NCBI GenBank assembly: GCA_022801715.1
Contig: JAAWSV010000005.1
Span: 1 to 64,000, forward strand
Source of the DNA: Oscillospiraceae bacterium
GTDB taxonomy: Bacteria; Bacillota; Clostridia; Oscillospirales; Oscillospiraceae
Direction of reading: 5' to 3'
Length of the DNA stretch: 64,000 nt
This document shows, one piece after another, positions 22,590 through 42,539 of this stretch. The position numbers were made by a program, and so were the translations under genes. The first letter of the stretch is position 1; each line of letters starts with the position of its first letter. A model generated the notes under the pieces. The model did not search any database and was not told where the DNA came from. It saw only the letters and a list, made by a program, of their open reading frames with translations.

Positions 22590-22618
22590 TTGACAAACAG
22601 GACAAAAAGCGGTATTCT
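22590..22618 (+). promoter_or_regulatory. Promoter of the met leader/metY transcript
   Basis: TTGACA-N17-TATTCT. Confidence 0.7.
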
Positions 22619-22649
22619 TATAGCAACTTGAGGGAAGGGAGGGCTCTCC

Positions 22650-22709
22650 ATGAAGAACAGCGTCTACATGTGCATGATGATGTTCAGGACTGCCCTCAGC
22701 CTTCGGTGA
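22650..22709 (+). CDS. Methionine-rich 19-aa leader peptide
   Basis: ATG AAG AAC AGC GTC TAC ATG TGC ATG ATG ATG TTC AGG ACT GCC CTC AGC CTT CGG TGA = MKNSVYMCMMMFRTALSLR*; SD gaagggaggg. Confidence 0.65.
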   Translation: MKNSVYMCMMMFRTALSLR

Positions 22710-22755
22710 GGTCCGGTCCCGGCTCTCATGCCCGGACGGTCCTAAGTGGTTGACG

Positions 22756-22788
22756 GCAGTCTGATTCTCAGACTGCTTTTCTTTTTTT
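22756..22788 (+). terminator. Intrinsic terminator (attenuator) before metY
   Basis: gcagtctga-ttc-tcagactgc-TTTTCTTTTTTT. Confidence 0.85.
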
Positions 22789-22822
22789 CCGCGACTATTT
22801 ATTTTACAGGAGGAAGCGCACC

Positions 22823-24103
22823 ATGTCCAATCAGCACATTGAAACCACTTGCGTCCAAGGGGGCTACCGCCCCGGCAACGGTGAGCCCCGGCAGATCCCC
22901 ATCGTCCAGTCCACCACCTTCAAATATGACACCAGCGAGGATATGGGCAAGCTCTTCGACTTGGAGGCCAGCGGCTACTTCTACAGCCGCCTCCAGAACC
23001 CCACCTGCGACTATGTGGCCAATAAGATCTGTGAGCTGGAGGGGGGCGCCGCCGCCATGCTCACCTCCTCCGGCCAGGCCGCCAACTTCTACGCTGTCTT
23101 TAACATCGCCTCCTGCGGCGACCACGTGGTCTCCAGCAGCAGCATCTACGGCGGCACCTACAACCTCTTCGCCGTGACCATGAAGCGCATGGGCGTGGAA
23201 TTCACCTTTGTGGCCCCCGACTGCACCGAGGAGGAGCTGGAGGCCGCCTTCCGCCCCAACACCAAGGCTGTCTTTGGCGAGACCATCGCCAACCCCGCCC
23301 TCACCGTGCTGGATATAGAGAAGTTCGCCAAGGCCGCCCACGCCCACGGGGTGCCCCTGATCATGGACAACACCTTCGCCACACCGGTGCTCTGCCACCC
23401 CTTTGAGTTCGGCTGTGACATCGTCACCCACTCCACCACCAAGTACATGGACGGCCACGCCAGCGCCTTGGGCGGGGCCATCGTGGACAGCGGAAACTTC
23501 GACTGGAGCAGGTACCCTGACAAGTTCCCCGGCCTTACTACCCCCGACGACAGCTACCACGGCGTCACCTACACCCAGCGCTTCGGCAAGGCCGCCTATA
23601 TCACCAAGGCCACCGTCCAGCTCATGCGGGATTTGGGTTCCTCCCCCTCCCCCCAAAGCGCCTTCCTGCTGAACTTGGGCTTAGAAAGCCTCCACATCCG
23701 CATGGAGCGCCACTGCGAAAACGCCTTGGCCGTCGCCCAGTATCTCCAGAGCCACCCCAAGATCGCTTGGGTGAAGTACAGCGGCCTCCCCGGCGACGCC
23801 TACTACGAGACCGCCCGGAAGTACCTGCCCAAGGGTTCCTGCGGCGTGGTGTCCTTCGGTGTAAAGGGCGGGCGCAAGGCGGCGGAGACCTTCATGAAGT
23901 CCCTGCGCCTGGGTGCCATCGCCACCCACGTAGCTGACGCCCGCACCTGCTGCCTCCACCCGGCCAGCTCCACCCACCGCCAGATGAACGACGCGGAGCT
24001 CATCGCCGCCGGCGTCTCGGCGGACCTTGTCCGCCTGAGTGTAGGCTTAGAGAGCAAGGAGGACCTGATCGCCGATCTGGCCCAGGCGCTGGAGCAGGTG
24101 TAA
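22823..24103 (+). CDS. metY: O-acetylhomoserine aminocarboxypropyltransferase / sulfhydrylase
   Basis: PLP Cys/Met metabolism family; SGQAANFYAVFNIASCGDHVV...HSTTKYMDGH. Confidence 0.92.
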   Translation: MSNQHIETTCVQGGYRPGNGEPRQIPIVQSTTFKYDTSEDMGKLFDLEASGYFYSRLQNPTCDYVANKICELEGGAAAMLTSSGQAANFYAVFNIASCGDHVVSSSSIYGGTYNLFAVTMKRMGVEFTFVAPDCTEEELEAAFRPNTKAVFGETIANPALTVLDIEKFAKAAHAHGVPLIMDNTFATPVLCHPFEFGCDIVTHSTTKYMDGHASALGGAIVDSGNFDWSRYPDKFPGLTTPDDSYHGVTYTQRFGKAAYITKATVQLMRDLGSSPSPQSAFLLNLGLESLHIRMERHCENALAVAQYLQSHPKIAWVKYSGLPGDAYYETARKYLPKGSCGVVSFGVKGGRKAAETFMKSLRLGAIATHVADARTCCLHPASSTHRQMNDAELIAAGVSADLVRLSVGLESKEDLIADLAQALEQV

Positions 24104-24237: not shown

Positions 24238-25155
24238 ATGCCCATCCGAATCCCCAACGAGCTGCCCGCCACCCAGACACTGACCAACGAGAATATCTTC
24301 GTGATGACAGAGACCCGGGCCATGACCCAGGACATCCGCCCGCTGAAGATTGCCCTCCTAAACCTGATGCCCACTAAGATCGACACGGAGACCCAGCTGG
24401 CCCGCCTGCTCAGCAACACCCCCCTCCAGGTGGAGCTGGAGCTGATCTGCCCCGCCGGCCACGTGCCCAAGAACACCCCGCAGGAGCACATGCTGGCCTT
24501 CTACAAGCACTTTGCCGACATCCGTGAGAGGAACTTCGACGGCCTCATCATCACCGGTGCGCCAGTGGAGCAGATGCCCTTCGAGGAGGTGGCGTACTGG
24601 GGGGAGCTGTGCGAGATCATGGAGTGGTCCAAGTCCCATGTCCACTCCACCTTCCACATCTGCTGGGGCGCGCAGGCGGGCCTCTACTACCACTACGGCA
24701 TCAACAAGGTCCCTCTCCCTGAAAAGATGTTCGGTGTCTTTCCCCACGTGGTGGAGCGGCGGAGCAACATGCTCTTCCGGGGCTTTGACGACACCTTCAT
24801 GGTCCCCCACTCCCGCCACACCACGGTGCTCCGGGAGGACATCGAGCGGGCGGGCTGCCTGAAGATCCTGGCCTCCTCCCCGGAGGCGGGGGTCTACGCC
24901 ATGAGCACAGAAAACGGCCGTCAGATCTTCATCACCGGCCACAGTGAGTACGACCCCCGGACGCTGGAGAAGGAGTATCTCCGGGACAAGAACGCGGGCC
25001 TCCCCATCGCCGTTCCCAAGAACTACTACCCAGACGACGACGACACCCAGCCCCCCAAGGTCACTTGGCGTTCCTGCGCCAACCTGCTCTACAGCAACTG
25101 GCTCAACTATTTCGTCTACCAGACCACCCCCTACGATTTGGGCGAGCTCAAATGA
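24238..25155 (+). CDS. metA: Homoserine O-acyltransferase (MetA family)
   Basis: [66 protein letters not shown]. Confidence 0.95.
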
Positions 25156-38864: not shown

Positions 38865-39151
38865 CAAAAAACCCGTCCCAAAGATATGGTAAAATCTTTG
38901 AGACGAGTAAGATAAAACATTACCCGCGGTACCACTCAAATTGCGCGCCAGACGGCGCACCGCTCGTCGGGCTCCAGCAAGCCCTATGCCTTCACGCAGC
39001 AGTCACGGGAAGGGTCTACTGGCACGGCAAAAGCCGCGGGTTCTTCCTTCCAGCTCAGGAGTTACAAACCTGCGGAGCGTTCCTTGTGGCTTGCACCAAC
39101 CGCCACTTCTCTGAAGGACGCGCTGCGCTGTCCTCTCCATCATTGCTTTTA
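38865..39151 (-). ncRNA. T-box leader upstream of copy 1
   Basis: minus strand GAGTGGTACCGCGGG T-box, GGTTGGTGCAAGCC stem I apical motif, terminator CTCGTCTCAAAGAT..ATCTTTGGGACGGGTTTTTT. Confidence 0.88.
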
Positions 39152-39261
39152 TTTTATTTGATTGTGGTATGATGTTACCATATCTTTTGCTGGAGGTCAA
39201 GTGTTAATTTTTGCGCCGACGGGCGCGGGACGTTCTTTTGGTACTGCGGCGCAGTACGATA

Positions 39262-42254: not shown

Positions 42255-42539
42255 AAAAACCCGTCCCAAAGATTTCTCTTTGAGACGAGTTCATAACAAA
42301 AGCTATGTACCCGCGGTACCACTCAAATTGCACCCCCCAAGGGGGATACCACTCCTCGGGCTCCAGCAAGCCCTATGCCTTGACGCGGCAGTCACGGGAG
42401 CATCCTACTTGGCGTGCCGCGCGGTTCGGACCTCCAGCTCGGAAGGGATAGGACCTTGGACACCGCCGCCGCCGGGCTTCCACCATCCCCGACTCTCTGC
42501 ACGCGCGCCGCGCCCGTCCGTCTTCGTCATCGCTTTTTT
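42255..42539 (-). ncRNA. T-box leader upstream of copy 2
   Basis: minus strand GAGTGGTACCGCGGG; AGAGAGTCGGGGATGGTGGAAGCCC stem I; terminator CGTCTCAAAGAGAAATCTTTGGGACGGGTTTTT. Confidence 0.88.

Follow-up and report, generated by a model that had tools for sequence, protein, structure and literature searches.

A Met-rich leader peptide and candidate Met-tRNA-sensing transcription attenuator ahead of metY-metA in Oscillospiraceae

The window analyzed here, a 64,000-nucleotide stretch of DNA from an Oscillospiraceae bacterium, carries the genes metY and metA behind a compact upstream region. An earlier note on this DNA had described a promoter, a Shine-Dalgarno (SD) sequence, a Met-rich ORF of 19 amino acids, and a terminator ahead of metY and had read them as a leader-peptide attenuator. 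When we re-read the locus, each of these elements was present at the positions given there, and the sequence features matched the description base for base. The features of the locus, followed by two from elsewhere in the same genome (G000), are the following:

22590 to 22618, + strand: sigma-70-type promoter, TTGACA (22590-22595), 17-nt spacer, TATTCT (22613-22618)
22637 to 22644, + strand: leader SD sequence GGGAGGG(C), also region 1; SD-like GGGAGGG at 22637-22643, GAGGGC pairing with GCCCTC at 22692-22697
22650 to 22709, + strand: leader ORF of 19 codons, MKNSVYMCMMMFRTALSLR, Met at codons 7, 9, 10, and 11, with homologues and analogues in relatives
22668 to 22682, + strand: regulatory codons ATG TGC ATG ATG ATG (Met7 at 22668-22670, Met9-11 at 22674-22682)
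22687 to 22701, + strand: region 2, predicted antiterminator 5' arm GGACTGCC-c-TCAGCC, from the pairing, recoding, and covariation analyses
22710 to 22742, + strand: hairpin between regions 2 and 3, GGTCCGG...CCGGACGGTCC, seen in the fold
22748 to 22764, + strand: region 3, GGTTGA-c-GGCAGTCTGA, 3' arm of the antiterminator and 5' arm of the terminator
22756 to 22788, + strand: intrinsic terminator GCAGTCTGA-TTC-TCAGACTGC-T4CT7, stem of -12.9 kcal/mol
22808 to 22813, + strand: SD sequence AGGAGG of metY itself
22823 to 24103, + strand: metY, O-acetylhomoserine sulfhydrylase (TIGR01326, 587 bits, cut-off 495)
24238 to 25155, + strand: metA, homoserine O-acetyltransferase (NF047918, 490.9 bits, cut-off 460.5)
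C61 (contig of the window), SD at 67669 to about 67500, - strand: metG leader MGCSCYMCMMMLRTALSHL, ~3.6 kb beyond the window end
G000:C110:7097-7190: SAM-I riboswitch before metK

The terminator hairpin (22756-22776) begins 46 nt past the leader stop codon and runs into T4CT7 (22777-22788), which places an intrinsic terminator between the leader ORF and the first gene. The complementarity that the earlier note had described between gactgcc (22688-22694) and ggcagtc (22755-22761) is present, but its extent had been underestimated: these 7 bp are the core of a longer helix in which GGACTGCC-c-TCAGCC (22687-22701) pairs with GGTTGA-c-GGCAGTCT (22748-22762) through 8+6 bp with one mismatch and a duplex energy of about -24.4 kcal/mol. 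This antiterminator would exclude the terminator, and its pairing is clear in G000 and the leader types with three consecutive Met codons (MMM) and weaker in G005 and G010, which carry the type II leaders described below. With a ribosome stalled at Met7, the transcript in front of it is predicted to fold into a structure that contains the antiterminator; folded from beyond the leader stop codon, it is predicted to contain the terminator. When the window leader was recoded synonymously in 1000 trials, the pairing energy of the antiterminator was reached in 0.5% of them (p 0.005 for G000). A terminator scan on its own was not above chance (3 found versus 3.7 expected); the significance comes from comparing relatives. 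The hairpin at 22710-22742 could possibly act as a pause or spacer hairpin.

Our sample of the genus comprised 11 genomes with nine metY copies whose upstream DNA was readable, and all nine have a promoter, an SD sequence, a Met-rich leader ORF, and a terminator in front of the gene. At the window locus and in relatives, the promoter is followed by a short ORF with its own SD sequence, and a TTGACA-17/18-TATRAT-like promoter lies at the equivalent position in those relatives whose upstream DNA was read. Each leader has 3 to 8 internal Met codons, i.e., a codon run for the amino acid that is made or loaded by the downstream product. The genus has two peptide types, YMCMMM-RTAL (type I) and MxMxxMCxxCR[S/A/T]H (type II), with type I in G000 itself, G001 (MKNSVYMYMMMLRTALSLR), and G002 (MKNALYMCMMMRRTALNRM) and type II in G004, G005, G006, G008, G009, and G010 (for example, MARTMMMEMMAMHMCSMCLSCRAHRRVQSSR). 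A coding test of these ORFs is limited by the small number of synonymous changes; in the best case, G004 and G006 differ at five codons, three of them synonymously (Ser TCC/AGC, TGC/TGT, and CGC/CGT), a pattern as expected for an ORF that is translated. A search of 401 family genomes with a DNA pattern for type II returned the genus members carrying this type plus one chance match in G193, which adjoins an aldo/keto-reductase-like gene. Between the attenuator terminator and metY, the loci L089 (G002) and L083 (G010) have in common an element of ~170 nt with three hairpins and no Rfam match, which sits in the same place despite leaders of types I and II, respectively.

Analogous Met leaders precede metY in seven more genera of the family (G106 and G182; G109; G075; G136 and G202; G255; G073; G132). 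These were found via the upstream DNA of family metY genes and an MMM-type pattern search, and their peptides are MKMNMVSSMMMPCAVFGCF, MKQNMLSSMMMPSAAFAAS, MLKRTYNGFYMMMPITVFSRF, MSLIHHRAVMMMRSAVFGRTSDKRS, MNMIHRAVMMMCDTACVNAL, MKTVYTHTTMMMRSTACV, MNMAYDFNMMMPCTVFGSLVC, MNALSMRAVMMMPNTVFGRFQNR, and MVISSMKNKMMAMMMRMYLSMCFFLHAHQIVQ. A further Met leader lies on contig L002 of Clostridia bacterium RGIG4571, and the leader of L006, labeled Oscillospiraceae by its depositors, is identical to that of G182. Most leaders of the other genera carry MMM at codons 9-13, and with the window's own genus included this arrangement is found in leaders of 18-25 codons from seven genera. Type I and several leaders of a third type (type III) have MMM at codons 9-11 in an ORF of 19 codons; in type III, MMM starts at codon 9, 10, or 11, the region 2 stretch RCCGYCT follows two codons on, and the 5' parts differ. 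Outside type II, the peptides have little in common except MMM and the region 2 codons. The peptide of L225 (G132; MVISSMKNKMMAMMMRMYLSMCFFLHAHQIVQ) is type II-like in another genus, its MC..HAH..VQ resembling the type II peptides described above.

The earlier note had proposed searching relatives for Met-run leader ORFs before metY/metA and had regarded a Met run or complementarity that is not conserved as grounds for abandoning its reading. Such ORFs occur throughout the genus and in other genera, and the Met run is conserved in all nine metY leaders of the genus and in independent sequences from seven other genera. In the 401 family genomes, the MMM-type pattern added two real leaders, those of G255 and G073, and the other matches whose context was read were due to chance. 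The same pattern found no leader outside the family among 394 genomes of the order, where every match lay inside a long open frame or in DNA that lacks the architecture of a leader. Most of the family's metY genes that were read are immediately preceded by a promoter, with no leader in between. Upstream of metY at L127 in another genus (G104, MetY 87% identical), a promoter is followed by a terminator-like hairpin, GGGCGGTCTGAGGGTCCTATCAGACTGCCC, without a leader ORF, which is possibly a decayed attenuator.

The complementarity of regions 2 and 3 is likewise conserved among relatives, with covariation. Across ten lineages, only 2 of 200,000 permutations paired regions 2 and 3 as well as the cognate combinations (200 of 200,000 for type III alone and 157 of 50,000 for type II), and 24 of 200,000 did so for the SD region and region 2, though these counts are not exact probabilities because the lineages are related to each other. 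In type III, three lineages have G-C as pair 1 and the others have A-U, and five cells of type III regions 2 and 3 changed on both sides compared to 2.2 in shuffles. The protector pairing of the SD region with region 2 (1:2) is found in types I and III and covaries, e.g., GAGGGC/GCCCTC at the window locus, GAGGGCAG/CTGCCCTC before metG, AAAGGACGGT/ACCGTCTTT in G109, and GGGCGGT/ACCGCCT in G202; in the predicted fold of type II, the Met-codon stretch takes the place of the SD region and folds onto region 2. Synonymous recoding of single loci in this GC-rich DNA gave modest results (p 0.000-0.43 in MMM leaders besides G000) and did not reach significance in RGIG4571 or in several type II leaders, G005 and G010 in particular; as these p-values are too weak alone, we used the permutations between lineages. 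In several lineages, region 3 has a U pairing with region 2 while the 3' arm of the terminator keeps its G, leaving a wobble pair in the terminator. That region 3 is matched to region 2 at the cost of a tolerated wobble suggests selection for the antiterminator itself.

A scan of the window's own genome for an SD sequence, ATG, and ATGATG found one leader besides that of metY; four further places were read and discarded, and the metY and metG leaders were the only ones recognized among those listed. The metG leader shares GGACTGCCCTCAGCC and GGTTGACGGCAGTC, i.e., the region 2 and 3 sequences, with the metY leader and is followed by a terminator and a 674-residue open frame, which we take to be methionyl-tRNA synthetase (metG) from the characteristic start of this family, as judged by eye. 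The nearest relative, G001, also has a metG leader (MGNSRCMCMMMLRTALSHL), in which a U-A to U-G change keeps the terminator stem. Apart from these two, metG was read at six further loci of the genus and at 27 from other genera in the family, and neither the same filter nor inspection by eye showed a Met leader there. Leaders thus stand before genes for making Met and before the gene for loading it onto tRNA, and the paralogous leader before metG in these two genomes points to Met-tRNA as the probable signal. Together, the metG copy and the metY-metA leader would form a small Met-tRNA regulon.

The usual controls of Met genes in Firmicutes are the SAM-I riboswitch (RF00162) and the T-box (RF00230). 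Neither the window leader nor any of 20 leader loci has an Rfam match: RF00162 is absent from the leaders, with the single match of the window's genome before metK, and RF00230 is absent at 22590-22790 and before metG, with none of the ten T-box matches of that genome (four above the curated threshold) at metY or metG. These negative Rfam results rule out a SAM riboswitch or T-box as the control at the metY and metG leaders. One SAM-I riboswitch is present in each of nine of the 11 genus genomes, and it precedes metK at all four loci whose context was read, so that separate sensors seem to serve SAM synthesis and Met synthesis. Elsewhere in the window, T-box leaders at 38896-39152 (- strand, 81.8 bits) and 42278-42539 (- strand, 56.2 bits), both below the Rfam threshold of 93, precede ORFs 38935-36551 and 42190-39917, whose N-terminal parts appear XRE-like by eye; this is an unusual place for a T-box.

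We consider it very probable that the region before metY-metA is a ribosome-mediated leader-peptide transcription attenuator sensing charged methionyl-tRNA. This reading, which the earlier note had put forward, gains support at the sequence level from conservation, covariation, and the metG copy; conservation and the metG copy also rule out a chance ORF as the explanation of the leader. It builds on the anatomy, conservation, covariation, and gene context of the leaders, from which we infer translation of the ORF, ribosome stalling, Met-dependent termination, and a role for the SD pairing. RNA polymerase would transcribe the 19-codon leader with a ribosome behind it. If elongator Met-tRNA were scarce, the ribosome would stall at Met7 or Met9-11 and leave region 2 (22687-22701) free for region 3 (22748-22762), a pairing that would sequester the terminator 5' arm and allow transcription of metY-metA. 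If Met-tRNA were plentiful, the ribosome would proceed to the stop codon and cover region 2, and the terminator (22756-22788) would form. On an untranslated leader, the SD region (region 1) would pair with region 2, hiding the leader SD and leaving region 3 to the terminator, so that termination would be favored; this pairing would complete a trp-like 1:2:3:4 set. The same device would govern metG.

The geometry can be estimated from standard ribosome footprints, with region 2 at ORF nt 38-52 in type I and starting no earlier than nt 40 in type III. A ribosome with its A site at codon 9 would extend forward to about ORF nt 37-38, up to the border of region 2, and one with its A site at the stop codon would have its trailing edge near nt 42 and cover most of region 2, the antiterminator 5' arm. 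Since a stall at codon 11 (Met11) would cover part of region 2, early stalls in the run should matter most. Several points count against the attenuator. One enzyme charges both the initiator and the elongator tRNA, so Met starvation should lower initiation on the leader as well, and in the rest of the family most metY genes do without a leader. Moreover, B. subtilis RNA polymerase reportedly outruns the ribosome (PMC9226507, citing Johnson 2020), and this would oppose attenuation unless the polymerase pauses or these Clostridia differ.

Other readings of the same anatomy are conceivable. Cys codons stand beside Met (MCMMM, MHMCSMCLSCRAH), and the leader could sense Cys-tRNA or both amino acids, or the nascent peptide could itself arrest the ribosome. 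MetY uses sulfide, Cys is present in most leaders, the metG leader of G000 and most type II peptides of the genus having three each, and the C-terminal part MCxxCR[S/A/T]H of type II is kept among species. However, Met occurs in every leader and in runs, while Cys is absent from the metY leader of G001 and from those of G182, G109, G075, and G073; control of metG fits Met-tRNA but not Cys, and outside type II the peptides show scant likeness beyond MMM and the region 2 codons. We therefore regard a sulfur-amino-acid or nascent-chain sensor as improbable.

A metabolite riboswitch or protein-bound RNA that escapes recognition, with an accidental short ORF, would account for the terminator, the alternative hairpin, and the strong folding between regions 2 and 3. 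It is very unlikely given that no Rfam family matches, that the genera have the ORF, SD sequence, Met run, and mutually exclusive pairings in common, and that MMM recurs at codons 9-13 of 18-25-codon leaders in seven genera including the window's own. Hardly any weight falls on the last reading, a terminator that constitutively dampens transcription behind a Met run that is a chance feature or decayed relic, with no Met response. G104, which lacks a leader ORF despite having a promoter and terminator, and the many relatives with neither would suit it, yet conservation with covariation over ten lineages and the metG copy speak against it.

If the region is a Met-tRNA attenuator, its use of the leader SD as region 1 raises a further idea, which we hold only tentatively and think is more probably wrong than right. 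A family-level attenuator of this kind would read initiation (initiator fMet-tRNA) and elongation (elongator Met-tRNA) on one ORF and decide how scarce Met is split between both; it would have arisen or been rebuilt repeatedly, as types I, II, and III, and been copied to metG.

Leader-peptide attenuation, the textbook example of transcription coupled to translation, is uncommon in the bacterial group studied here, and riboswitches and T-boxes are the controls normally assigned to Firmicute Met genes. Met is special in that the synthetase charging elongator tRNA also charges the initiator, so that starvation should halt leader initiation, and a working Met attenuator would make this conflict testable. 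It would also probe transcription-translation coupling in Clostridia versus the reportedly uncoupled B. subtilis, and it predicts a Met response of metY-metA and metG in gut Clostridia that have been little studied. Small ORFs missed by annotation could furthermore be sought with the rule of MMM at codons 9-13 together with an antiterminator.

Among known systems, the leaders resemble the enterobacterial trp, his, thr, ilv, leu, and pheA/pheST attenuators in having a short ORF with a codon run for the product amino acid, an antiterminator and a terminator that exclude each other, and 1:2 pairing; pheST, with a tRNA synthetase as the target of attenuation, parallels metG. Unlike these, they use Met codons and occur in Clostridia, their region 2 is located within the ORF and would be covered by the rear of the ribosome at the stop codon, and the leader's SD region doubles as region 1 in types I and III, whereas type II, with its Met-codon stretch on region 2, has the classical trp layout. 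Like SAM-I riboswitches and T-boxes they would control Met genes by termination, and a T-box would likewise read tRNA charging; unlike Met genes under such control, these leaders have neither element, SAM-I serving metK and T-boxes other genes here. Leader-peptide attenuation in Gram-positive bacteria, including at a tRNA-synthetase-type gene (the hisS paralogue), has precedents in the His leaders of Firmicutes hisS/hisZ and his operons (PMC2965389 and PMC9413887) and in the Leu-rich ilvD leader of Staphylococcus aureus (PMC5794164), which concern other amino acids and genes and are alike by mechanism. For Met, the open-access literature yielded no paper on leader-peptide attenuation of metY, metA, or metG, and a survey of Actinobacteria reported no such attenuator for Met (PMC1262725). 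The sole earlier Met leader found there is metL of Streptomyces lividans, a predicted peptide (MSTTSDRTPATEATTTPGARCMCRRMCAF) before metNIQ that similarly precedes a Met gene set and mixes Met and Cys codons but belongs to an actinobacterium, has a leaderless transcript, lacks a Met run and a typical Rho-independent terminator, comes with no account of conservation in the passages cited, and controls Met uptake rather than metY-metA or metG (PMC8079986). All defining features of a classical leader-peptide attenuator that can be tested on sequence were found here, and on that basis the leaders are a Met-specific version of this device, new in being Met-specific, in Clostridia, and apparently serving biosynthesis genes plus methionyl-tRNA synthetase.
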